NCBI RefSeq assembly: GCF_021390595.1 | Contig: NZ_JAJEJR010000001.1 | Location: 1,798,001 to 1,862,000 of the forward strand | Origin: Paraburkholderia sp. HP33-1 | GTDB taxonomy: Bacteria > Pseudomonadota > Gammaproteobacteria > Burkholderiales > Burkholderiaceae | Length of the DNA: 64,000 nt | Direction of reading: 5' to 3' | Shown: positions 47,538 to 64,000 of the stretch, in pieces | Layout of the letters: each line of letters opens with the position of its first letter | Position numbering within the stretch: the first letter of the stretch is position 1 | Program-made: the position numbers and the translations under genes | The notes under the pieces: generated by a model | Told to the model about the DNA's origin: nothing | The model's database searches: none | Seen by the model: only the letters and a program-made list of their open reading frames with translations

Positions 47538-48196
47538 CCGTACCTCTTCAGGCGGTAGCCAACGCCGCGCACGGTCACGATCTGGTCCGCGCCGATCTTG
47601 CGCCGCAAACTGTGCACATGCACTTCGATCGTGTTGCTGCCGACTTCCTCGCCCCAGCCGTACAGCTTCTCTTCGAGCTCGGCTTTCGTGAACACGCGTG
47701 TCGGCTCCTCGATCAGTGCCTGCAGCAGCGCGAATTCGCGCGGCACGAGCGGCAGCGGCACGCCGTCCTTGGTGACTTCGTGAGCGGCGGGGTCGAGCGT
47801 CAGTTCGCCGTGGCTGTAGATCGGCTGCTTCTGGCCGGTGCGCCGGCGCAGCAGCGCGCGGATGCGAGCGGCCAGCTCGTCGAGGTCGAACGGCTTGACC
47901 AGGTAGTCGTCGGCACCGGCGTCGAGACCGCGGATGCGTTCGTCGACCGCGTCGCGCGCGGTCAGGATGATGACCGGTGCCGCGCCGCCGTTGCGGCGAT
48001 ACGCGTTCAGCACATCGATGCCGTCTTTTTTCGGCAGACCGAGGTCGAGCAGCACGAGGTCGTACACGCCGTTATCGAGCGACAGTTCCGCCGCGCGGCC
48101 GTCCTCGGCCCAGTCGATCGCATAGCCGGCGCGGCGCATCGCGCCCAGCACCGATTCCGCGATCATGTCGTCGTCTTCGACCAGTAGCAGCCGCAT
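47534..48196 (-). CDS. OmpR-family response regulator
   Basis: A 220-aa regulator. The receiver domain has phospho-acceptor Asp51 (LVLLDLGLPKKDG) and acidic pocket EDDD at 7-10. The winged-helix DNA-binding domain spans ~125-220 (LPLVPREFALLQALIE, SNTIEVHVHSLRRKIG). It is first in a two-gene operon with the histidine kinase. It is divergent from the outer-membrane factor / adaptor / RND genes; the 221-bp spacer contains tandem CTTA-type half-sites. Confidence 0.94.
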   Translation of the reverse strand: MRLLLVEDDDMIAESVLGAMRRAGYAIDWAEDGRAAELSLDNGVYDLVLLDLGLPKKDGIDVLNAYRRNGGAAPVIILTARDAVDERIRGLDAGADDYLVKPFDLDELAARIRALLRRRTGQKQPIYSHGELTLDPAAHEVTKDGVPLPLVPREFALLQALIEEPTRVFTKAELEEKLYGWGEEVGSNTIEVHVHSLRRKIGADQIVTVRGVGYRLKRYG

Positions 48197-48249: not shown

Positions 48250-48333
48250 CTTAAAGATTCCTTACGGGCCGCCGAGCGCGCCTCGATTTCGCGCTGCTCG
48301 CGGCCCGCGATTCGGCGTTAAGCCTGTCTTAAG
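48250..48333. promoter_or_regulatory. Candidate response-regulator boxes between TCS and RND operon
   Basis: Two tandem half-site pairs lie in the 221-bp divergent region: CTTAAA-N5-CTTACG at 48250-48266, nearer the regulator gene, and GTTAAG-N5-CTTAAG at 48317-48333, nearer the efflux genes. An 11-bp period of CTTAA-like half-sites is typical of PmrA/QseB/CzcR-type OmpR regulators. Binding by the adjacent regulator is an inference. Confidence 0.5.
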
Positions 48334-49830: not shown

Positions 49831-50944
49831 CCTGTTTTCCTCGCGCCATCCGTGGCCGCGCGTTGCCGCCATCGCCGCGCCGCTCGTTGGCGCGATCCTG
49901 TTGTATGCATCGGTCCATCCGGTTCACGCGGACGACAGCGCGGCCAGCGAAGCGCAACCGTCGGTCGCGGTGCAGACCGTGCGCGTGCAGCGCGCCGCCA
50001 TCGCTCAACCGGTGCGCGGCTACGGGATCGTCGCGGCCACCGCGTCGAACGTGACGACGATCAATCTTCCCTATGTCGCGCGTATCGTGCAGATGCGCGT
50101 GCAGGCGGGCGAGACCGTCAAACGCGGCACCCCGCTTTTCGTCGTGCAGGCCGATCCCGCCGCGGTGCTTGCCGCGACGCAAGCCAGAAGCGCGCTGACG
50201 CTCGCGCAAGGTGAACTCGCGCGAACCCAGTCGCTATACGACAAGGGCCTCGCGACGCAATCGCAACTGGCCAGCGCGAGCAAGGCCGTCGACGATGCCC
50301 GTGAAGCGCTCGCCGCGCAGAATCAGACCGGCATCGCAAGCGGCAACAAGGTCGTGACCGCGCCGTTCGACGGCGTGGTCCTGCAGTTGTCGGCGGCGCA
50401 AGGCGACCAGTTGCAGGCGGGCGCGGCGATCCTGCAGCTCGCAAGCGGCAGCGGCCGCGACGCGCGCGCCAACGTGACGCTCGGCGTCGAGCCCAGTGAC
50501 GCCGCGGCGATCCATCCCGGCGATGCGCTCACGCTGCACGGCCTCTCCACGGCGCTCGCGAAGACATCGATCGAAGGCCGCGTGGTGCTCGTCGGCGCCG
50601 CAATCGATCAGCAATCCCAACTGGTCAACATCGGCGCGACGGTCCCGCTCGCGCAAACGCCGTTCATCCCCGGCACGCGCGTCGCCGCCGACATCGCCAC
50701 GCGCACCGGCACTCACTGGATCGTGCCGCGCGCGGCCGTGCTCCAGGACGGCCAGCACGCCTACGTGTTCCAGATCACGCCGCAAAACAAGGCGCACCGC
50801 GTCGCCGTCACGATCGCGATCGAAAACGGCGAGCGCTACGGCGTCGACGGTCCGCTCGACCCCGCGCTCGGCGTCGTGACCAGCGGCAACTACGAGCTCC
50901 AGGACGGCATGGCGGTACGCACCGGCGGAGATAGCGCACGATGA
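49820..50944 (+). CDS. RND periplasmic adaptor (membrane fusion protein)
   Basis: A 374-aa adaptor. N-terminal membrane/signal segment (VAAIAAPLVGAILLYASV), then a lipoyl half-motif (VQMRVQAGETVKRGTPLFVV), an alpha-hairpin (AARSALTLAQ-like LTLAQGELARTQSLYDKG), a second lipoyl half (GNKVVTAPFDGVVLQLSAAQ) and beta-barrel/membrane-proximal domains. The start lies inside the end of the outer-membrane factor gene, and its stop overlaps the RND permease start (ATGA), so translation of all three is coupled. Confidence 0.9.
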   Translation: MRNSLFSSRHPWPRVAAIAAPLVGAILLYASVHPVHADDSAASEAQPSVAVQTVRVQRAAIAQPVRGYGIVAATASNVTTINLPYVARIVQMRVQAGETVKRGTPLFVVQADPAAVLAATQARSALTLAQGELARTQSLYDKGLATQSQLASASKAVDDAREALAAQNQTGIASGNKVVTAPFDGVVLQLSAAQGDQLQAGAAILQLASGSGRDARANVTLGVEPSDAAAIHPGDALTLHGLSTALAKTSIEGRVVLVGAAIDQQSQLVNIGATVPLAQTPFIPGTRVAADIATRTGTHWIVPRAAVLQDGQHAYVFQITPQNKAHRVAVTIAIENGERYGVDGPLDPALGVVTSGNYELQDGMAVRTGGDSAR

Positions 50945-54038: not shown

Positions 54039-54869
54039 CTATGCCAGCACATCCGCAAACCCGCCGACCCGCGCGCCAAGCGCGCGGATCGCGGCGGCCA
54101 CTCTCGGCGAGAGCAGCGCCTGCAACTCGTCGGCGTGCCGGTAGTCGTGCATGCCCTCGCTCAAGGCCTCGCCCGCCAGCGCCGGATGACAGTAGATTTC
54201 GCCGACGCCGCGCGGCAGATTCGCGAGCGCGGCGAGCCACGTCGCCTCGTCCATGCGCCCGCTCGCCGCGATGCCGACCACGTAGTCGTTATGCGCGACG
54301 CCCGCGCGCTCGAGCCGCGTCTTCACCTGCGCGATCCACGGCCGCAGCCACAGCGGCGCGTTCGCTTCGAACGGCAGACGCACCGCCTTCATGCCGTAGT
54401 CGCGGCCGATGTCGAGAATCAGGCCGAGCACGGTCGGATGCAGATGAAAATGCTTGTGCGTGTTCACGTGGTCGAGCGTGAGGCCGGTCGCGGCGAAGGC
54501 TTCGAACTGCGCGCGAATCTCGTGCGCGAGTTGCCGGCGTACGTGCGGGAGAAAGAAGAAGCGCACGCCGTCGCGCACCATGTTGCTGCCAAAGCGGCCA
54601 TTTTCATCGAGCAGCGCGGCGATCTGCTCGCGCGGCGCCAGCGCGGCGCCGTCGGCCAGCACCAGGTGCAGGCCTACGCGTAGTTCCGGCAGCGCACGCG
54701 CGCGTGCGACCGCGTCTCCGGCGGCCGGTGCGCCGACCATCAGACTCGCGGCGCGCAGCACACCGTTGCGATACGCGCGCTCGACCGCAAAATTGACGCG
54801 CTGATGCAGGCCGAAATCGTCGGCGGTGATGATCAGTCCGCGCGGCTGCGCCGGCTTCGCGTTCTCCAT
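54039..54869 (-). CDS. hpnK: Hopanoid deacetylase HpnK (YdjC/ChbG family)
   Basis: A 276-aa metal-dependent carbohydrate deacetylase. Metal ligands lie in IITADDFGLHQ (Asp17/Asp18) and the His cluster NTHKHFHLHPTV. The hopanoid-associated type is indicated by the adjoining HpnI-like glycosyltransferase. In the pathway HpnK removes the acetyl group from GlcNAc-bacteriohopanetetrol to give the glucosamine form. Its ATG shares one base with the glycosyltransferase stop (TAATG), so translation is coupled. It is last in the leftward operon 56510-54039. Confidence 0.9.
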   Translation of the reverse strand: MENAKPAQPRGLIITADDFGLHQRVNFAVERAYRNGVLRAASLMVGAPAAGDAVARARALPELRVGLHLVLADGAALAPREQIAALLDENGRFGSNMVRDGVRFFFLPHVRRQLAHEIRAQFEAFAATGLTLDHVNTHKHFHLHPTVLGLILDIGRDYGMKAVRLPFEANAPLWLRPWIAQVKTRLERAGVAHNDYVVGIAASGRMDEATWLAALANLPRGVGEIYCHPALAGEALSEGMHDYRHADELQALLSPRVAAAIRALGARVGGFADVLA

Positions 54870-56140
54870 TACGTGAGGCTGTCCAGCTGGCCGCTGCGCT
54901 CGGCGGTCGGCCTGCCGACCTGCATGCGCGCGCCGCGCCACACGACGTGCGAACCGAACGCGCTGACGAGCCACTGGAGCGCCAGAAGCGTATCGCGCAA
55001 CGGCACGAGGGGAAGATCGCGCCAGAACGTGCGAGCGCGGCGTGCCGCGCGCAGATGCAGCAGCAGGCGCGCGCCAACGCACACCGATGTCGCCGACGCG
55101 CTCGCGATCACCGCCGCGACCGACGCATGCGTACAGGTGCACGTCGCGAGCGACACGGTCAGCCACGCGCTCGTCATCAGCCACGGCGTGGGGAAAGTGA
55201 TCAGCAAGGACACGAAACCGGGCGGATTGACGGAACGGATCGTGCGCAGCCAGCGCGTTTCGCGCTGCCACAGCGCGGCGAAGGTCGGCTCGATCACGTC
55301 GGTGGCGACCATCACGCGCGACAGCACCGTTTGCAGACCGAGCGCGCGCACGTGTTCGGCGAGCCAGTAGTCGTCGGCGAGGCGGTTTTTCAGCGCTTCG
55401 AAGCCGCCGATGCGCTCGAGCGTCGCGCGCCGCAATGCGAGCGTCGCGCCGAAACCGAAGCGGCGCGAGCCCATCGCGTGCGCGACCCGCACCGACGGCG
55501 CGAACCATTCGTTGATGAACAGCGCACCGACTCGCGGCCAGAAGCCACCCACGCCGCGCGCGACGTACAGGCACGTGACCACGCCGACGTTCGGGTCCGC
55601 AAGCGGCGCGGCGACGCTGTCGAGATAGTCCGAATCAACGGCGATGTCGCTGTCGGCGATCACAATCACGTCGTGGCGCGCGCGCGCCGCCATGTTGATC
55701 AGGTTGCTGACTTTCAGATTGCTGCCGTGCACACGCGTGTCGATCGCGAGTTCGATGTCGCACTTCGGATAGGCCGCCTGCAAACGGCGCACCACTGCGA
55801 TGGCGGGATCGTGCGGCGACGAGACACCCAGCACCAGCTGAAAATGCTGATGCCGCTGCTCGCAGAAGGTCCGCAGATTTTCGTAGAGACGCGGCTCGGC
55901 GCCGCATAACGGTTTGAGAACGCTGACACCGACCTGCGCGAACGGATCGGCCGGGCAGTCAAGTGACTCCATTGGCGAACGACCGTGCGGGCGATTGATT
56001 GCTCTGCCGCCATGATGGTGCGATTTATGCCGCGAGGTGAAAAACGGCATGGCGAGCGCGGCGGTCACCGTGTAGATCGAAGCGCTAATGCAACCGGCTA
56101 ACAGAAGCCATTGGAATGCAATCAACGCGTGGGGCACCAT
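54869..56140 (-). CDS. HpnI-like hopanoid glycosyltransferase (paralogue 2)
   Basis: A 423-aa membrane GT2/GT21-type transferase. The N-terminal helix (ALIAFQWLLLAGCISASIYT) is followed by the catalytic domain with VSVLKPLCGAEPRLYENLRT, the DSD metal motif (VIVIADSDIAVDSDYL), GGFEALKNRLADDYWLAEHV and the RxxRW signature in WQRETRWLRTIR. C-terminal membrane helices complete it. It is directly coupled to hpnK, while a second HpnI-type gene lies with hpnJ at 60213. Which one transfers GlcNAc to bacteriohopanetetrol cannot be settled from sequence. The first ~65 residues include a His-rich loop (SRHKSHHHGGR). Confidence 0.87.
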   Translation of the reverse strand: MVPHALIAFQWLLLAGCISASIYTVTAALAMPFFTSRHKSHHHGGRAINRPHGRSPMESLDCPADPFAQVGVSVLKPLCGAEPRLYENLRTFCEQRHQHFQLVLGVSSPHDPAIAVVRRLQAAYPKCDIELAIDTRVHGSNLKVSNLINMAARARHDVIVIADSDIAVDSDYLDSVAAPLADPNVGVVTCLYVARGVGGFWPRVGALFINEWFAPSVRVAHAMGSRRFGFGATLALRRATLERIGGFEALKNRLADDYWLAEHVRALGLQTVLSRVMVATDVIEPTFAALWQRETRWLRTIRSVNPPGFVSLLITFPTPWLMTSAWLTVSLATCTCTHASVAAVIASASATSVCVGARLLLHLRAARRARTFWRDLPLVPLRDTLLALQWLVSAFGSHVVWRGARMQVGRPTAERSGQLDSLT

Positions 56141-56159: not shown

Positions 56160-56510
56160 TTAGTGCTCGGCCAGCACGAACGGTTGCCCCGTGAGGCGTA
56201 AATGGAGCACGACGAGCCACCGGCGCGGACAGTTCGCCGCGATCACGGCTGGCCATGCGTCGCGCACGGCGCGAATCGCGTAGTCGCGCCGCACCGCGAA
56301 CTCGAAGGCGACCTGCGCGAACTCGCGCGCGACCACCACGCTGCCGACGATCAGCACGAGCGCAAACATCCGGAATGAGGTGGAACCGAAAAAAGACTCA
56401 GACACCGGCAGCACCGGCAGCGCGACGCACAGCAACGCTTCGGCGCCTACGGCCGTCAGGGAGGCTACCAGCAAATGGGCTCGCAGCATGTCAATGGTGA
56501 CTCGCTTCAT
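56160..56510 (-). CDS. Small membrane protein heading the hpnI2-hpnK operon
   Basis: A 116-aa protein with two hydrophobic helices (HLLVASLTAVGAEALLCVAL and MFALVLIVGSVVVAREFAQV), then a basic/aromatic soluble end (RRDYAIRAVRDAWPAVI). I do not recognise the family. ATG 56510 has GAGG six bases upstream. It lies 19 bp before the glycosyltransferase, in the same direction, so it is the first gene of that operon. A role in hopanoid synthesis or trafficking is suggested only by position. Confidence 0.68.
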   Translation of the reverse strand: MKRVTIDMLRAHLLVASLTAVGAEALLCVALPVLPVSESFFGSTSFRMFALVLIVGSVVVAREFAQVAFEFAVRRDYAIRAVRDAWPAVIAANCPRRWLVVLHLRLTGQPFVLAEH

Positions 56511-56894
56511 AACGTGCCTCGTGCATGGCCTTGCGGCCTGACCGGGTGCGTGGCAATGGGCGGGACTCATCGATGCCGTCCACTGACGCCATTGACTAGC
56601 ATAAAGAATGCCTCGCGCGTCATTCCATCGAAGTCCTTACGATGAGGTTGCGATCATCTGACGGCGGTATGGTCTCGCGTATGCATCACGATCTGCGACG
56701 ACCATTTTATAGCGCGTCGATGGTATCGATTCAAGCTGAAGGAAACCTTAAGCAGACGCATGGCATAAACCGGCTAACGAACGGCGTGGTTACACTTCGG
56801 AACACGGCAGATTATGCGCCCACGTGCATCAATGGCGCTTGCACAAAAACCCTGGCCGTTATGCAATAAAACCCCTCAACGGAAGATTTGCCTC
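56511..56894. promoter_or_regulatory. Divergent control region between hopanoid operon and TCS
   Basis: This 384-bp region has no gene. Leftward, it contains the module CTTAAG-N5-CTTCAG (minus strand of 56736-56752) followed after exactly 10 bp by TACCAT (minus strand of 56720-56725), a box plus -10 directed at the gene starting at 56510. The same module lies before hpnJ at 62939-62971. Rightward, the region must also carry the promoter of the response-regulator gene at 56895, for which I see no clear -35/-10. Confidence 0.65.
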
Positions 56895-57554
56895 ATGCGC
56901 TTACTCCTCGTAGAAGACGACGAGCTCATCGGCTGCGGTGTCGAAGCGGGCCTTCGCCAGGCCGGCTTCACCGTCGACTGGGCACGCGACGGCCACAAGG
57001 CCGGGCTCGCGCTCGACACGACTCAATATGCATTGGTGGTGCTGGACCTCGGCCTGCCGCGCGTGAGCGGCACGGAACTGCTCAAACGCGTGCGCGACGC
57101 CGGCAACGACGTGCCGGTGCTGGTGCTGACCGCGAGGGGCACGGTCGTCGATCGTGTCGGCGGTCTCGAAGCCGGCGCCGACGACTATCTCGGCAAGCCG
57201 TTCGATCTCACCGAACTCGTCGCGCGTTGCCGCGCGCTGTTGCGCCGCGCACAAGGTCGCAGTATCGATCTGATTCGTTACCAGAATCTGACAGTGAATC
57301 CCGCCGCGCAAACGGTGCAGGTCGGTGCGGCGCGCGTAGCGCTCACGTCGCGCGAATGGGCGATCCTGCTGCAACTGCTGACCAATCTCGGCATTCCGCA
57401 GTCGCGCTCCCGGCTCGAAGAAAGCCTCTACGGCTGGCAGGAAGAAATCGAAAGCAATGCGATCGAGGTGCACGTGTCGAACCTGCGCAAGAAGCTCGGC
57501 GCCAGCCTGATCAAGACCGTGCGCAACATCGGCTATGTGATGGAGAAAGAATGA
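56895..57554 (+). CDS. OmpR-family response regulator (PmrA/QseB-like)
   Basis: A 219-aa regulator. The receiver has acidic residues EDDE at 7-10 and phospho-acceptor Asp51 (LVVLDLGLPRVSG), with the Lys switch in DYLGKPFDL. The winged helix follows at ~125-219 (VALTSREWAILLQLLTN, SNAIEVHVSNLRKKLG). ATG 56895 has GGAAG ~10 bases upstream. It overlaps the kinase gene by four bases. Placed between two hopanoid operons that share a PmrA-type box, it is the likely regulator of both; this is inference. Confidence 0.93.
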   Translation: MRLLLVEDDELIGCGVEAGLRQAGFTVDWARDGHKAGLALDTTQYALVVLDLGLPRVSGTELLKRVRDAGNDVPVLVLTARGTVVDRVGGLEAGADDYLGKPFDLTELVARCRALLRRAQGRSIDLIRYQNLTVNPAAQTVQVGAARVALTSREWAILLQLLTNLGIPQSRSRLEESLYGWQEEIESNAIEVHVSNLRKKLGASLIKTVRNIGYVMEKE

Positions 57555-58954
57555 TCGGCCCGTCGATTCGCCGGCGCCTCGTGCTGCTCGTGCTCGCGAG
57601 CATCGCGATCGTATGGGGCGGTGCGCTCGTGTCGAGCTACCGGCAGGCGGCGCGCGAAGTCGCCCAATGGGAAGAAGCGCGCCTCGCCGAGCTCGCGCAG
57701 ATTCTCGCGTTGCTCGACCCTGCCAATCTGATGACGCTCGCCACTGCGCGCATCGACGTGCGCGAAGAAGAGAGAGGCGGCGAGCCCGGCGCAAGCGATT
57801 CCGACGACGACGACACGCTACCGCGCGACGCCCTTTTCCAGGTGCGCGCCGCCGACGGCGCCATCCTGGCGGGCAGTCCGCAACTGCGTGCGGTCGATGC
57901 GTGGGATTTGCCGCTGCCGGCCAGCAGCGGCGCGCAGGACGTCACGCTCGGCGGGCAGCTCTATCACTCGTTCACGTTGCGCGACACGTTGCTCGGTCAC
58001 AGCGTGCGTGTATTCGAGCCAGCCAATACGCGCAGCGACCTGGTGAGCGGTGTCGCGAGCCGCATTGCGCGGCCCACGCTGATCGCGGTGCCGGTGCTCG
58101 CACTACTCGTGTGGTTCAGCATCGGCTGGAGTCTCGCGCCGCTGAAAGTGCTGTCGGCCGCGCTCGGTTCGCGCGACGTCAACCGCATGGAACCGGTCGG
58201 CATCGGCCGCACGCCGCTCGAAGTGCGCCCGCTCGTCGATGCGATCAACCAGATGCTCGCGCGTCTGCATCATGCGCTCGAACTCGAGCGAGCCTTCACC
58301 GCCGACGCCGCGCACGAACTGAAGACGCCGCTCGCCGCGATCAAGGTGCAGGCGCAGGTCGCGCTCGCGGAGCCGGATATTGCGTTGCAGCGGCTCGCGA
58401 TGGAGCGTGTCGTGCAAGGCGTGGATCGCAGCGCGCGGCTCGCCGAGCAGTTGCTGCTGCTCGCGCGGCTCGACGTGCAGGAAAAGCTGCCGACCGAGCC
58501 GTTGAAGCCGGCGGCTATCGCGAAGCACGCGCTGCTCGCGAACAGACGCAATGCGCAGCAGAAGCACATCAACGTGATGCTGGTCGGCGACATGCTCGCC
58601 GAGATCGATGCCGAGCCGGTGCTGATCGGTATCCTGCTCGACAATCTGCTCGATAACGCGATCAAGTACGGACGCACGGGCGGTAATGTCGAAGTGGCGG
58701 TGCACCATACCGACGAGCGCGTGCAGGTGACCGTGCGCGACGACGGCCCCGGCGTCGCGCCCGACGATCTCGCGCGGCTCACGAACCGCTTTTTCCGCGC
58801 GACCGGCAATCAGGCGACCGGTAGCGGGCTGGGTTTGTCGATCGTTGCGCGGATCGCCGAGCATTTCGGGGCGAGTCTGCAGTTGGGCGCCGGGATCGGC
58901 GAGCGCGGGCTTGCGGTCGGGGTATCGTTTCCGGCTTATCGTGCGCCGCGCTGA
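57551..58954 (+). CDS. Sensor histidine kinase (PmrB/QseC-like)
   Basis: A 467-aa membrane kinase. TM1 is at ~10-27 (VLLVLASIAIVWGGALV). A ~145-residue periplasmic sensor contains a conspicuous acidic stretch at 72-88 (EEERGGE then DSDDDD). TM2 is at ~175-193 (TLIAVPVLALLVWFSIGW), and HAMP follows. HisKA has phosphoacceptor His255 in FTADAAHELKTPLAAIK. HATPase_c has NLLDNAIKYG, VRDDGPGV and GSGLGLSIVARIA. ATG 57551 overlaps the regulator stop (ATGA). The acidic loop recalls cation or cationic-peptide sensors such as PmrB or PhoQ, but no specific ligand motif can be proven. Confidence 0.92.
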   Translation: MIGPSIRRRLVLLVLASIAIVWGGALVSSYRQAAREVAQWEEARLAELAQILALLDPANLMTLATARIDVREEERGGEPGASDSDDDDTLPRDALFQVRAADGAILAGSPQLRAVDAWDLPLPASSGAQDVTLGGQLYHSFTLRDTLLGHSVRVFEPANTRSDLVSGVASRIARPTLIAVPVLALLVWFSIGWSLAPLKVLSAALGSRDVNRMEPVGIGRTPLEVRPLVDAINQMLARLHHALELERAFTADAAHELKTPLAAIKVQAQVALAEPDIALQRLAMERVVQGVDRSARLAEQLLLLARLDVQEKLPTEPLKPAAIAKHALLANRRNAQQKHINVMLVGDMLAEIDAEPVLIGILLDNLLDNAIKYGRTGGNVEVAVHHTDERVQVTVRDDGPGVAPDDLARLTNRFFRATGNQATGSGLGLSIVARIAEHFGASLQLGAGIGERGLAVGVSFPAYRAPR

Positions 58955-58981
58955 AGCCGGTTTAGCTCGCGTGTCGAATAC

Positions 58982-60031
58982 TCAGCGCCGCTCCGTTTCG
59001 GCGACGCTCGAACGCTGCTCGGCCAGTTCGGCGCGCACGCCGTGCGGCGCGACATGTGCCGGCGTGCTGCCCGACGCCTCGGTGAACTGCCACGCGATCA
59101 GACCCGGCACGAACATCAGCAGATCGCGAATTCGCCTTGCGGCCGCGAGCGCGAGACTGGTGGCGGGGTCGAGCCCAAGTGCGCCGCCGATCAGCACGAA
59201 AGCGCCCTCCTGCACACCAAGGCCGCCCGGTACGAAGAACGCGGCACTGCTGATCGCCTGGATCAGCGATTCGATCACGACCGCCTCGACGAGCGTCACG
59301 CGCACGCCGAGAAAATACAGCGCGAGCCAGATTTCGAGTGACGTCAGCACGCATTGCAGCGGCTGCCAGAAGAACAGATAGCGCAGCACGACCGCGCGGC
59401 GGCGCCAGATCAGCTTGATCGACTGATCGATCTGCGCGGACTGGCCGACCAGCGAAGCGAGCTTGCCGCTCGTCATATGATTGAGCGCGCGCGTGATGCG
59501 CTCGAACGGGTTCGCATGCTGCACGAGCCCGAACAGCAACAGCACCGGCGTCAACGCGACCACGCCCCAGGCGAGCTGCCCTGCGAGCCGCAATGCGCCC
59601 GATTGGGCATTGGCGAAGAGAAAACCGATCCCGACCATCGTGAACATCAGCTGACTGATCACGGTCAGCTGCATGTCGACGATGGTGCTGCCGACCGCTG
59701 TCGATGGCTTGACGCCCCAGCGCTTGAGCATGCGGAACGACACGAGCTCGCCGCCGATCCGTGCGACCGGCAGCATGCAGTTGACCGATTCGCGCACCCA
59801 CACGAGATGCAGCATCTTGCCGAGGCTGGGGCGGTTGGCGCCGCGAATCAGCGACCGCCAGTCGCAGGCGTTGGCGATCATTGGCAGCACGTGCGCCAAC
59901 GCCGCCAGCACGAGGCCTCCTCCAGCCGCGCGCAACGCGCTGAGCACCGCACGCGGATCTTCGCGCCACACCAGCCACAGAGAGACGAGCAAACCGGCGA
60001 GCGCGGCCGCGCGACCCAGATGCTTCATCAT
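58982..60031 (-). CDS. hpnL: HpnL-like membrane protein (UPF0104 / LPG-synthase TM family)
   Basis: A 349-aa inner-membrane protein with about eight helices (AAALAGLLVSLWLVW, GLVLAALAHVLPMIANA, LAWGVVALTPVLLLFGLV, AVVIESLIQAISSAAFFV). The family signatures VARIGGELVSFRML and PGGLGVQEGAFVLIGGALGL are clear. In hopanoid clusters this protein is HpnL; it may act in transport or flipping of the product. I chose ATG 60031 because GAGGTG lies five bases upstream and it overlaps the stop of the 62-aa ORF (ATGA). The ATG at 60070 has no ribosome site. Confidence 0.9.
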   Translation of the reverse strand: MMKHLGRAAALAGLLVSLWLVWREDPRAVLSALRAAGGGLVLAALAHVLPMIANACDWRSLIRGANRPSLGKMLHLVWVRESVNCMLPVARIGGELVSFRMLKRWGVKPSTAVGSTIVDMQLTVISQLMFTMVGIGFLFANAQSGALRLAGQLAWGVVALTPVLLLFGLVQHANPFERITRALNHMTSGKLASLVGQSAQIDQSIKLIWRRRAVVLRYLFFWQPLQCVLTSLEIWLALYFLGVRVTLVEAVVIESLIQAISSAAFFVPGGLGVQEGAFVLIGGALGLDPATSLALAAARRIRDLLMFVPGLIAWQFTEASGSTPAHVAPHGVRAELAEQRSSVAETERR

Positions 60032-60216
60032 GCGGGCACCTCGCACGCGACCCCAATCAGCATCGTGCATCGCACGGTGCGCGAGACCGTCTGCCGCGCC
60101 CCGCTCGCCGTTGCCCGCACCGCCGGAGCGCTCACGCTCGCCTTCGAGGCGCTCTCGTGGCGCCCGCTCAAAACCTCTTCGATCATTGCCTGCCCAATCT
60201 GCCGTTCGTTCGTCAT
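60028..60216 (-). CDS. 62-aa ORF coupled between hpnI and hpnL
   Basis: The hpnI stop overlaps an ATG at 60216 (ATGA). The frame from that ATG runs 62 codons, with no internal stop, and ends in a TGA (60028-60030) that again overlaps the hpnL start (ATGA). The product starts MTNERQIGQAMIEEVLSGRH, continues with a Ser/Ala/Thr-rich middle and ends TMLIGVACEVPA. It has no signal peptide or known motif. The double four-base overlap is the main argument that it is translated. A fortuitous open frame is possible. Confidence 0.5.
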   Translation of the reverse strand: MTNERQIGQAMIEEVLSGRHESASKASVSAPAVRATASGARQTVSRTVRCTMLIGVACEVPA

Positions 60217-61373
60217 TCGTCCTGCGCCGCCGACAGCAGCCCGTCGCCGTCGACCTTGAAGCTGAAGCCCCGCCAGATCACACGCGACGAGCGGAAGCTC
60301 GCGACGAAAATCGCAAACGATACGATATCCCATAACGGCAGCAGCCACAGATCGCGACACCGTTGGCCCAGCGCCCGATCCGTGCGCCACTTCAACGCGA
60401 GACGCGCGAGCACCGTCACCGCCGCGAGCAGCCACGCCCACAGTGCCCCGCCCGACGACGCGAGCGCGAGCAGCGCGAACGCCCCCGGATGCACGAGCGC
60501 CGTGCCGAAGTGCCCGAGCGGATCGATACGGCGAATCGTGCGGCTCCAACGCAGCTCGTGCCTCATGAGCTGCGTCACGTTCGCTTCGACACACGCATGC
60601 GCGATCGCGAACGGTGGAATCGATACCTGCTCGCCCGCCGCGCGCACCGCCGCGCCGATTTCGTAGTCCTCGGCCAGATGCCGCACGAACGGCTTGAAGC
60701 CACCGATCCGCTCGTACGTGTCGCGCCGCATCGCGATGGTCTGGCCGAAGCAAGGCTGCGCGAGCCCAAGCGCCAGTCCGGTGACGACGCCCGGCAGGAA
60801 CTGGTAGTTGGTCGCGATCGCCGACAGCCGGGGCCAGAACCCCGGATCGGGCTGACCTCGATACGCGCAGGTGACGAGCCCGACGCCCGGCTTCTGCAAC
60901 TCCCCGACCACATTGCGCAGATAGTCCGGGCCGACGCACACGTCGCTGTCGGCGAATACGAGCACGTCATGGCGCGCCTGCGGCAGCATGTTGAGAATGT
61001 TGCTGATCTTGCGGTTCGGGCCGTACAGACGCGCATCGGTGACGACGGTGATGTCCGCGTTCGGATGGACGCACCGCAACTCGTCGACCGCTTGCAACGC
61101 GGGGTCGGCGGAGTCGTGCACGCCGAACAGGAATTGCACGGGCCCCGGATAATCCTGGGCGCAGAAGCTCGACAGATTGTCGAGCAACGCCCACTCGTTG
61201 CCGTGCAATGGTTTGATAACCGTAATGGGTGGAAAGCTGGTGGGTTCGGCCACCGTCCTCGCGAAGAAGCGCCCGATCAGCGCGCTCGCGAGCACGGTGT
61301 AGCCGATGCCGACAACGGTCGCCGCCGCGCACGCATACGCGAGCGTAACGGCGGCGAGGTGTGCGGCGCTCAC
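60213..61373 (-). CDS. hpnI: Hopanoid glycosyltransferase HpnI
   Basis: A 386-aa membrane glycosyltransferase (ceramide-glucosyltransferase-like, GT21). The N-terminal helix (TLAYACAAATVVGIGYTVLA) is followed by ITVIKPLHGNEWALLDNLSS, the DSD motif in VLVFADSDVCVGPDYL, GGFKPFVRHLAEDYEIGAAV and the (Q/R)xxRW signature in MRHELRWSRTIRR, then C-terminal helices. HpnI adds N-acetylglucosamine to bacteriohopanetetrol. The GTG at 61373 overlaps the hpnJ stop (GTGA), and the length then equals that of known HpnI; the frame extends upstream inside hpnJ without support. Confidence 0.9.
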   Translation of the reverse strand: MSAAHLAAVTLAYACAAATVVGIGYTVLASALIGRFFARTVAEPTSFPPITVIKPLHGNEWALLDNLSSFCAQDYPGPVQFLFGVHDSADPALQAVDELRCVHPNADITVVTDARLYGPNRKISNILNMLPQARHDVLVFADSDVCVGPDYLRNVVGELQKPGVGLVTCAYRGQPDPGFWPRLSAIATNYQFLPGVVTGLALGLAQPCFGQTIAMRRDTYERIGGFKPFVRHLAEDYEIGAAVRAAGEQVSIPPFAIAHACVEANVTQLMRHELRWSRTIRRIDPLGHFGTALVHPGAFALLALASSGGALWAWLLAAVTVLARLALKWRTDRALGQRCRDLWLLPLWDIVSFAIFVASFRSSRVIWRGFSFKVDGDGLLSAAQDE

Positions 61374-62791
61374 GCCTCGTGCGCGCGCAGGAAGCGGAAA
61401 AACTCGACGCCTTCGCGCAGGCGCCGTTTCATCATGTCCCAACTCGTCAGCATTTCGCGCAAGATCTCCCAGATCTTCGACGGCCGGAAATAGAAACGTT
61501 TATAGAAGTTTTCGAGCTGGTGATACATCTCGTCGCGCGACAGATGCGGGTAGCCGATCGCCGCCAGCTGCACGCCCTCCTTGCTGACGAGATTGATGAC
61601 CTTGTTCTCCGCGAGCCAGCCGTTTTCGACCGCCTGGTTATAGAGCGTGGTGCCCGGGTACGGCGCGGCGAGCGACACCTGGATGGTCAGCGGATTGATC
61701 TCCTTCGCGTACTCGATGGTCTTCTGGATCGTTTCCTGCGTCTCGCCCGGCAAGCCGAGAATGAAGGTGCCATGCACCTTGATGCCCAGCGTGCGGCAAT
61801 CCTGCGCGAAGCGCCGCGCGATGTCCGTACGCAAGCCCTTCTTGACGTTCAGCAGGATCTGGTCGTCGCCGGATTCGTAGCCGACCAGCAGCAGGCGCAG
61901 GCCGTTTTCCCTCATGATCTTCAGCGTCGAGAAAGGGACGTTCGCCTTCGCGTTGCACGACCATGTGACGCCCAGCTTGCCCATGCCCCGCGCAATTTCT
62001 TCCGCGCGCGGCTTGAAGTCGGTGAACGTGTCGTCGTCGAACATGATCTCCTTGACTTCGGGCATGTTGTCGCGAATCCACTTGACTTCCTCGAGCACGT
62101 TCTCGACCGAACGCACCCGATAACGATGGCCGCCGACCGTTTGCGGCCACAGGCAGAACGTGCACTTCGAGCGGCAGCCGCGACCGGTGTAGAGCGACAC
62201 GTACGGATGTTTCAGGTAGCCGTTGAAGTAGTTCTTGATCGTCAGATCGCGCTTGTAGATCGGCGCGACGAACGGCAGTTCGTCCATGTTCTCGAGGATC
62301 GGGCGCGCTTCGTTATGCTCGATCGAGCCGTCGGGTGCGCGATAGCTCAAGCCCAGGATCTGCGCGAACGGCTTGCCCTCGGCGATTTCCTTGCAGGTGA
62401 AATCGAATTCCTCGCGACACACGAAGTCGATGGCTTCGGTCGCGATCAGTGAATTATGCGGATCCACCGCGACCTTCGCGCCGACCATGCCGATCAGCAG
62501 CGACGGCTTGCGCTTCTTGAGATCCTGGGCAAACAGGGCGTCGGTCGGGAAGGACGGCGTGCTGGTGTGAATTACTACCAGCTCGTATTGCGTGGCGATG
62601 TCGAGCGCAGCTTCGACGGACAAACCATCTGCCGTGGCGTCGAGCACGCGGCTATCCGGAACGAGTGAGGCGGGTTGTGCGAGCCACGTCGGATACCAGA
62701 ACGAGCGGACTTCACGCTTGGCCTGATAGCGCGAACCCGCACCACCATCGAAGCCGTCGTACGACGGCGCCTGCAAGAACAGGGTTTTCAT
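61370..62791 (-). CDS. hpnJ: Hopanoid radical SAM protein HpnJ
   Basis: A 473-aa B12-binding-type radical SAM enzyme. The N-terminal cobalamin-like Rossmann domain (~1-190) starts MKTLFLQAPSYDGFDGG. The radical SAM core has the [4Fe-4S] motif CxxxCxxC in GRGCRSKCTFCLWP, then EIMFDDDTFTDFK and GTFILGLPGETQE. HpnJ converts the hexosamine side chain of bacteriohopanetetrol to the cyclitol ether (ring contraction). ATG 62791 has GGAG six bases upstream. It is first in the leftward hpnJ-hpnI-small ORF-hpnL operon. Confidence 0.96.
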   Translation of the reverse strand: MKTLFLQAPSYDGFDGGAGSRYQAKREVRSFWYPTWLAQPASLVPDSRVLDATADGLSVEAALDIATQYELVVIHTSTPSFPTDALFAQDLKKRKPSLLIGMVGAKVAVDPHNSLIATEAIDFVCREEFDFTCKEIAEGKPFAQILGLSYRAPDGSIEHNEARPILENMDELPFVAPIYKRDLTIKNYFNGYLKHPYVSLYTGRGCRSKCTFCLWPQTVGGHRYRVRSVENVLEEVKWIRDNMPEVKEIMFDDDTFTDFKPRAEEIARGMGKLGVTWSCNAKANVPFSTLKIMRENGLRLLLVGYESGDDQILLNVKKGLRTDIARRFAQDCRTLGIKVHGTFILGLPGETQETIQKTIEYAKEINPLTIQVSLAAPYPGTTLYNQAVENGWLAENKVINLVSKEGVQLAAIGYPHLSRDEMYHQLENFYKRFYFRPSKIWEILREMLTSWDMMKRRLREGVEFFRFLRAHEA

Positions 62792-63115
62792 GGATGCTCC
62801 AGCAAGCCGTAATCGGCGCTTTCGGTTTTCAGTCGGGAATCTATTTGTTCCATTGCCCAAACGCAAGCCGGGAAAGCCTGGGCACGACACGCACGTAGCA
62901 ACGGCCGCGGTCCAGAAAGGCCACGGGCAGTGGCGCAAATAGTACGGAGCAAAGCTGAAGGAAACCTGAAGAATAATACTGCGTTCAGACCGCGCGCGGC
63001 AGGCTCTGATGCGCCGATTTGTTGCGATTGACCGGTTGGCGTCGCCGCGTCGCATCGATGTCGTATCAATGTGGTATCGGTGTGATGCGCGCAAACGCGC
63101 AGTCTTACGGGAGGC
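62792..63115 (-). promoter_or_regulatory. hpnJ upstream region with PmrA-type box and -10
   Basis: These 324 bp without a gene lead into hpnJ. On the minus strand CTTCAG-N5-CTTCAG (62955-62971) is followed after exactly 10 bp by TACTAT (62939-62944). A 17-bp spacer would place the -35 hexamer inside the box, the arrangement of promoters activated by PmrA-like regulators. Box spacer sequence, box-to-10 distance and several flanking bases match the module at 56720-56752. The predicted transcript leader is about 140 bases. Confidence 0.65.
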
Positions 63116-63562: not shown

Positions 63563-63766
63563 TCACACCGGCTTGATGTCGGCCGCCTGCTTGCCTTTGG
63601 GCCCCTGCTTGATTTCGAAGCTGACTCTCTGATTTTCCTGCAACGACTTGAATCCTTCGGAGCGAATCTCCGAAAAATGGGCGAACAGGTCTTCGCCGCC
63701 GTCATCGGGGGTGATGAAGCCGAAGCCCTTTGCGTCATTGAACCATTTCACTGTTCCGGTTGGCAT
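63563..63766 (-). CDS. Cold-shock domain protein (CspA family)
   Basis: A 67-aa single cold-shock domain that binds single-stranded RNA/DNA. It starts [18 protein letters not shown], with RNP1 (KGFGFI) and RNP2 (DLFAHF). ATG 63766 has GAGGA nine bases upstream; the frame extends upstream without similarity. The length and sequence match the CspA-type proteins that occur as several paralogues in Burkholderia. The long upstream region could hold a cold-responsive leader. Confidence 0.95.
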
Positions 63767-64000
63767 GGCGATGTCCTCGTGATGCGCTGTACTAACAACG
63801 ATTGAATGGATGAAGCGCCACGTCGCGCAGATCATTCGTGCGGCGCTGACGCAGCGCCCCGGTTCGAGCCGCAAAGCCAGCCCGGTGCCAAGCCCTTAGC
63901 AAGCCGCGTGCCGCGACCGGGCGCTGCCGGCCACGCCCGGTGCGATTGGGCTTAATCAGATAATATAGTTCCTATCGGCAATTCATTCATGGCCGCGCAG
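63767..64000. other. Right-end stretch without a supported gene
   Basis: This is the region upstream of the cold-shock gene. It holds an AT-rich patch at ~63955-63990 (minus strand TATATTAT) that could be a promoter for the leftward cold-shock transcript. An ATG at 63989 on the plus strand opens a frame that leaves the window after four codons and cannot be judged. Confidence 0.4.

Follow-up and report, generated by a model that had tools for sequence, protein, structure and literature searches.

Twin promoter modules head two hopanoid-tailoring operons around a PmrA/QseB-like two-component system in Paraburkholderia

Introduction

To our knowledge, the control of hopanoid head-group chemistry, in which HpnI and HpnK give glucosamine-bacteriohopanetetrol and HpnJ makes the cyclitol ether, is largely open; EcfG reportedly controls hpnP in Rhodopseudomonas palustris. 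BesRS of Burkholderia thailandensis is described as a system whose regulon includes a putative hopanoid operon, polymyxin B-induced, with direct control of its targets said to need verification (PMC9426598), and hpnJ is named as a contributor to polymyxin resistance in the Burkholderia cepacia complex (PMC4244539). For PmrA of Klebsiella pneumoniae, residues N188, N196 and R210 are reported to touch bases and H195 to make a hydrophobic contact, alanine mutants of N188, N196 and R210 to have lowered affinity and abolished activity, and the -35 element of the pbgP promoter to be located at half-1, the first half-site (PMC4660055); the consensus of the PmrA box is given as CTTAAG and NTTAAT half-sites (PMC3973317). 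In Salmonella, the QseB homologue PreA is reported to activate the cytochrome b561 gene STM1253 (a value of 372 in the quantitative reverse-transcription PCR column), and PreB to have a putative iron-binding site, DxxE (PMC2653508). Here we analyze a stretch of 64,000 nucleotides from Paraburkholderia sp. HP33-1 (the window), in which an OmpR-family response regulator (RR; gene at 56895-57554) and a sensor kinase lie between two operons of hopanoid-tailoring genes headed by the same promoter module. We propose that this two-component system (56895-58954) probably activates both flanking operons, as judged from the sequence of the window and of its relatives.

Results

The promoter modules and the two-component system comprise the following features.

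56736..56752, minus strand: box of the smORF2-hpnI2-hpnK operon (half-1 CTTAAG at 56752-56747, spacer GTTTC, half-2 CTTCAG at 56741-56736)
56720..56725, minus strand: -10-like hexamer TACCAT, 10 bp past the smORF2-operon box
62955..62971, minus strand: box of the hpnJ operon (half-1 CTTCAG at 62971-62966, spacer GTTTC, half-2 CTTCAG at 62960-62955)
62939..62944, minus strand: -10-like hexamer TACTAT, 10 bp past the hpnJ-operon box
56895..57554, plus strand: OmpR-family response regulator, PmrA/QseB-like, under both equivalog cut-offs
57551..58954, plus strand: QseC-like sensor histidine kinase whose periplasmic part has a conserved acidic stretch

Read on the minus strand, 56752-56736 is CTTAAGGTTTCCTTCAG, followed by the 10-bp linker CTTGAATCGA and TACCAT (56725-56720), and 62971-62955 is CTTCAGGTTTCCTTCAG, followed by the 10-bp linker CTTTGCTCCG and TACTAT (62944-62939). 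CTTnnnT is common to both linkers, and the two sites share the consensus CTTMAG-GTTTC-CTTCAG, 10 bp, TACYAT. On re-reading, the twin 17-bp boxes, the 10-bp step, both hexamers and CTTnnnT proved to be exactly as an earlier note on this DNA had described them. Its placement of half-sites with an 11-bp period, the first at the -35 position, was also borne out: with the -10 as reference, half-1 covers roughly -39 to -34 and half-2 covers -28 to -23. The modules are 6.2 kb apart on the same strand, one before smORF2-hpnI2-hpnK and the other before hpnJ-hpnI-(62-aa ORF)-hpnL (aa, amino acids; ORF, open reading frame), and the RR and kinase genes run between the two operons in the opposite reading direction. 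No sigma-70-like pair of -35 and -10 elements was found at either promoter, which suits an activator-dependent promoter, and a search of both leaders against Rfam found nothing up to E = 1. That the 56736-56752 box serves mainly for autoregulation of the RR was rejected, since toward the RR there is no -10 at the right spacing.

The two operons consist of the following genes.

61370..62791, minus strand: hpnJ, radical S-adenosylmethionine (SAM) protein (TIGR03471)
60213..61373, minus strand: hpnI, glycosyltransferase (TIGR03472)
60028..60216, minus strand: small ORF of 62 aa, no family match, putative coding
58982..60031, minus strand: hpnL, membrane protein (TIGR03476)
56160..56510, minus strand: smORF2, 116 aa, no Pfam or NCBIfam family
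54869..56140, minus strand: second hpnI, HpnI2 (TIGR03472)
54039..54869, minus strand: hpnK, YdjC-type deacetylase (TIGR03473, PF04794)

The curated NCBIfam cut-offs are passed by HpnK, HpnI (twice), HpnL and HpnJ, as expected of a hopanoid head-group operon (HpnI, HpnJ and HpnK). The genome of the window, of 7.35 Mb, is close to Paraburkholderia podalyriae, and its HpnJ is 99% identical to that of L007 (loci of relatives are numbered L, genomes of the genus G). smORF2, the first detected gene after its box in most RR-linked relatives, has 97 homologues, from Paraburkholderia or Burkholderia wherever the source organism is named. In L013, L016 and L025, smORF2 and the box are kept, and hpnI2 and hpnK were not found intact in these loci.

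The architecture of the promoters is largely invariant. Among 17 aligned genomes, window included, the hexamer of the smORF2 promoter is TACYAT in 15 (TATTAT in L011, TGCTAT in L024) and that of the hpnJ promoter is TASYAT in 16 (none in L024). The 10-bp spacing from box to hexamer is kept in 16 of 17 hpnJ and 16 of 17 smORF2 promoters, the 17th smORF2 promoter being the one with TGCTAT. This fixed spacing is, on sequence, a putative class II activation geometry.

The module is rare. In the window, a scan for CTTNAG-N5-CTTNAG with at most one mismatch gave six matches versus 0.81 expected, a number reached by none of 100 shuffles, and the only exact matches are the two promoter boxes. Exact copies of CTTNAGGTTTCCTTNAG in the 7.35-Mb genome occur only at the two promoter sites, and hence not at the many unrelated genes that the earlier note had named as an outcome speaking against its claim; with up to two mismatches, there are six oriented matches versus four for the reversed pattern. 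Across 144 genomes of the genus, CTTMAGGTTTCCTTCAG with at most one mismatch gave 211 matches versus 2 for the reversed control. When the full module is defined as at least 11 of the 12 half-site bases plus TAnnnT 9-11 bp further on, 80 hpnJ loci (3.07 million strand-bases) hold 41 copies versus 0.40 expected from block shuffles. Thirty-nine of these face hpn or cytochrome b561 genes: 35 head hpn operons, with hpnJ, smORF2 or hpnI2 as the first gene, and four face cytochrome b561 genes, three of them beside the RR (L028, L029 and L031; the fourth is L014:2656). The others are an 11-of-12 copy in L011, from the relaxed scan, which adjoins the RR at a place where smORF2 can no longer be detected, and a copy within a repeat cluster beside a paralogous regulator in L033. 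A chance match was rejected on these genome, window, genus and hpnJ-locus counts against their controls.

The regulator and kinase display an OmpR/PhoB-family two-component architecture, with receiver and Trans_reg_C domains in the former and HisKA and HATPase_c domains in the latter. Family scores and a gap-free alignment of the RR with Klebsiella BasR/PmrA over 216 residues bear out the PmrA/QseB type proposed earlier. The RR scores 229.3 bits against the PmrA/BasR equivalog (PRK10643; cut-off 330), and the QseB and QseC equivalogs (PRK10336 and PRK10337) are matched at 218 versus a cut-off of 345 and at 250.8 versus 475 bits, QseC being the best score of the kinase. Because both of its equivalog cut-offs failed, the RR should be named neither PmrA nor QseB. 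Its recognition residues are N188, S195, N196 and R210, so the three base-contacting residues of PmrA are present and H195 is replaced by serine, as it is in all 38 distinct sequences at 60% identity or more. The pair S195-N196 is found in 38 of these 38 and in none of 24 sequences at 54% or less.

The genome of the window also holds RR paralogues at 54%, 50% and 47% identity. Paralogues of the 50% class carry H195-S196 and adjoin CTTAAG-N5-CTTAAG boxes in L011, L025, L033 and L035; the one in the genome of the window, QseB-like and also H195-S196 (47546-48196, minus strand), has a one-mismatch CTTAAG-type box, GTTAAGCCTGTCTTAAG, 120 bp upstream (48317-48333). When RR relatives are compared with paralogues, a CTTCAG half-2 correlates with S195. 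Near this QseB-like gene, a resistance-nodulation-division-transporter-like ORF, recognized by eye, starts at 50941. The periplasmic acidic stretch of the kinase, RIDVREEE[RK]GG...DDDD, is present in most of the hopanoid-linked set and reduced in the cytochrome-b561-linked set. Its DVRE fits the DxxE pattern of PreB, and the kinase might sense metal or cationic peptides.

Across the genus, the box goes with the regulator. Counting as an RR orthologue a best match with E ≤ 1e-104 and at least 74% identity, the box occurs in 75 of 75 genomes with an orthologue versus 19 of the 69 others (this count and the total of 211 matches, both over 144 genomes, and the hpnJ-linkage counts are drawn from hand-transcribed match tables). 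These 19 comprise 17 genomes with one match and two with two, and 10 carry an RR relative at 60-72% identity. G130 is a reduced genome of 4.3 Mb with two strict modules, in which no RR match was found at E ≤ 1e-60.

The linkage counts cover 111 hpnJ copies among the matches listed for genomes G000-G105. The module lies 103-170 bp upstream of 50 of the 50 RR-linked copies versus 1 of the 61 unlinked ones (in G033, a genome that has the RR), and a divergent module lies 81-194 bp away from 53 of 57 RR genes. Even within RR-bearing genomes, 11 of 12 unlinked copies have no module within 400 bp; the 11 include G066:C2:663347, which stands third in an operon headed by a box (L172). P. elongata has two nearly identical HpnJ, and only the RR-linked copy is boxed (L018 and L022), a pair that suggests recent exchange or duplication between regulated and canonical hpn operons.

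Lack of conservation in relatives, which the earlier note had set against its own proposal, was not what we found, as both modules are kept together with the two-component system. The box is retained over RR orthologues that range from 67% to 100% identity. Toward the low end it takes a relaxed form, and in each of the three loci examined with a 67-69% RR such a box heads the operon that holds the hpnJ copy. The 80 loci and the window divide into 19 with the RR (at least 60%) and the full module, one with the RR and a box without -10 (L024), three with the module only and 58 with neither. At least five arrangements of the genes, in part remote from the RR, keep the box; among them are smORF2-HpnI2-HpnJ-HpnK (L028, L029, L031), hpnJ-hpnL (L155), HpnI2-HpnK (L159, L175) and smORF2-HpnI2-HpnJ, distant from the two-component system, in L172. 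This persistence argues for more than shared ancestry.

The box class extends beyond hopanoid genes, as seen in a selection made up of listed sites away from hpnJ and of exceptions. Of 30 promoters examined for cytochrome b561 genes (the matches that had a locus), 19 have at least 11 of 12 bases and a -10, many of them turned round (CATCAG...CTTAAG). By analogy with PreA, this suggests that cytochrome b561 is an older target of this type of regulator. SAM-dependent methyltransferase promoters, examined for 30 of 35 listed matches, reach at least 11 of 12 with a -10 in 16: 14 of the 18 from genomes whose RR reaches at least 60% and 2 of the 12 from genomes that lack such an RR. Lowering the requirement to 10 of 12 bases gives 18 of 18 versus 6 of 12. 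Their half-2 is CTTCAG in only four of the 18 genomes with the RR (G000, G004, G012 and G025) and in none of the 12 without, and the spelling of half-2 by itself therefore does not tell these sets apart. In at least seven loci (L147, L149, L154, L161, L162, L170 and L177), all from RR-bearing genomes, the module is followed by a small ORF of about 90 aa (ELARG..SSTL), and its -10 is TAAATT- or TACAAT-like.

In the genome of the window, the methyltransferase box (C1:1373648) is GTTAAGGAGTTCTTCAG, followed after 10 bp by TACCAT, 32 bp before the start codon. A second candidate is the box at C1:1777966 (CTTAAGAAATCGTTCAG, 10 bp, TACGCT), which precedes a distantly related cytochrome b561-like gene with 33% identity to the one in L193. 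Both, picked for the genes that they face, are among five candidate -10-spaced sites besides the window pair (C2:44503, C1:90388, C1:1373648, C1:1777966 and C1:2804433) that came from 30 of the 64 one-mismatch matches; none of the other 34, which have no locus, is followed by a correctly spaced -10. In relatives, the RR regulon seems to include cytochrome b561, methyltransferase and small-ORF genes, which makes it look as if the hopanoid genes had joined a QseB-type regulon at a later time. What stands of the single hopanoid-modification regulon of the earlier note is the conservation of both modules with the two-component system; its confinement to hopanoid genes does not, as the relaxed module also precedes these three kinds of gene.

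Several further sites were seen. A palindromic CTTAAGGTTTCCTTAAG lies about 20 bp before a PAS-domain kinase gene in L150, L151, L167 and L176; these sites lack a -10 at the distance seen in the module and are perhaps read by another regulator. The motif matches of L188, L189 and L194 fall within ORFs and are letter-for-letter alike across three genomes. In L187 and L196, RR relatives of 60-61% identity face a Fur-family-like gene (Pfam match in L187) across a CTTCAGGTTACCTTCAG-like box. At 63599-64000 of the window, a cold-shock-like protein gene is overlain by a match to the cspA thermoregulator RNA that, at 33.8 bits, stays below the gathering threshold of 78.

Discussion

In the mechanism that we favor, phosphorylated RR would bind head-to-tail to the CTTMAG and CTTCAG half-sites, which have an 11-bp period and together cover roughly -39 to -23. 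The bound RR would bring in RNA polymerase at a promoter whose -10 is usable and whose -35 is poor, as modelled for PhoB and PmrA. A number of findings weigh against it. The hpnJ box of L024 has no -10 hexamer, and the hpnJ genes linked to RRs of 67-69% identity, which lack the strict module, were tallied as unlinked. Nine of the 19 box-bearing genomes without a close orthologue have no RR above about 55% despite a strict module, including G130 (95% complete, two modules). Modules of 11 of 12 stand at hpn genes in L058, L070 and L071, whose genomes have no RR above 54%. Among RR-less genomes, methyltransferase promoters reach 11 of 12 in G031 and G065, and variants of 9-10 of 12 with a right-spaced -10 occur in G002, G054, G058, G061, G137 and G138; no methyltransferase module with a -10 was found in G032, G042, G046 and G060. 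Finally, a tree of 81 HpnJ offers only five independent contrasts, one of them on well-supported branches, and shared ancestry may therefore explain much of the association between box and RR.

The RR-less boxes show that the box class is not exclusive to this RR, and another family member may read them. They also favor the strongest alternative, that the box class is read by one or more paralogous QseB/PmrA-like regulators, the adjacent system being only one reader, for which the paralogues at 54%, 50% and 47% in the genome of the window would be candidates. We nevertheless consider this unlikely, since the strict hpnJ box tracks RR linkage (50/50 linked versus 1/61 unlinked), the 50% paralogues with H195-S196 have CTTAAG-N5-CTTAAG boxes of their own, and the RR-less hpn boxes of L058, L070 and L071 carry CATCAG rather than CTTCAG as half-2. 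In the six RR-less genomes with methyltransferase variants, half-2 is likewise CATCAG or CGTCAG-like.

That the system instead represses both operons, active RR on the -35 region blocking RNA polymerase, would agree with the overlap of the box with that region, but we regard it as quite improbable, because no sigma-70-like -35/-10 pair was found at either site, as an activator-dependent promoter predicts, and because the spacing to the -10 is fixed (16/17 and 16/17 promoters) as in class II geometry. A recent duplication or chance likeness of the two promoters, with no regulatory meaning, is barely credible: they do lie 6.2 kb apart on one strand, with an hpnI gene in each operon, but within the 17 genomes their boxes are 92% identical and their flanks, unrelated outside box and -10, only 28-31%, which rules out a recently duplicated promoter, and the box is conserved over RR orthologues at 67-100% identity, relaxed at the lower end.

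Activation by the adjacent system can be set in a broader scenario, which we offer tentatively as possible rather than probable. A QseBC/PmrAB-type system whose older target was cytochrome b561 would have acquired S195 in its recognition helix and CTTCAG as half-2 of its box, and would have taken over hopanoid head-group genes. Paraburkholderia would then adjust the amino-sugar or cyclitol head of these lipids as needed, in a way similar to that in which PmrAB adds cationic groups to lipid A, and the acidic stretch of the kinase (DVREEE...DDDD) would sense cations or cationic peptides. If true, hopanoid decoration would be linked to a regulator family known for cationic changes to lipid A. With a defined box, a dedicated regulator and only a few candidate co-controlled genes, the control of hopanoid head groups becomes directly testable, and regulator paralogues with different boxes form a natural set for the study of specificity shifts in OmpR-type proteins.

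Comparison with known systems

Among the matches listed, judged by titles and abstract openings, we found no publication describing this system. What appears new, on sequence, is a regulon of the PmrA/QseB family in which recognition is altered and the targets are hopanoid genes; the regulator family itself is known. The likeness to PmrA/BasR of Klebsiella and Salmonella lies in the gap-free alignment, the base contacts N188, N196 and R210, and the box, which in the window consists of two head-to-tail hexamers with 5 bp between them and the -35 at half-1. It differs in S195 for H195, in having hopanoid neighbors instead of lipid A genes, and in half-site spelling: half-1 in the window is CTTAAG or CTTCAG, and half-2, CTTCAG, is two bases off NTTAAT. 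QseBC/PreAB is approached by the kinase, which scores best with QseC, and by cytochrome b561 genes, one of which (STM1253) PreA/PreB activates in Salmonella and others of which this box class precedes in Paraburkholderia, but the window proteins fall below the QseB and QseC cut-offs, and we know of no hopanoid genes from QseBC/PreAB hosts. EcfG and hpnP share with this locus a stress regulator over a hopanoid-modifying gene, and differ in that the regulator is a sigma factor, in another bacterial class, and the modification is methylation instead of a head group. The nearest precedent is BesRS, likewise a two-component system with a hopanoid operon in its regulon, but with a different regulator, described as RstA/OmpR-like, and a different proposed box, TGCG/TGCA; in the passages cited it is not described as neighboring hopanoid genes (PMC9426598).

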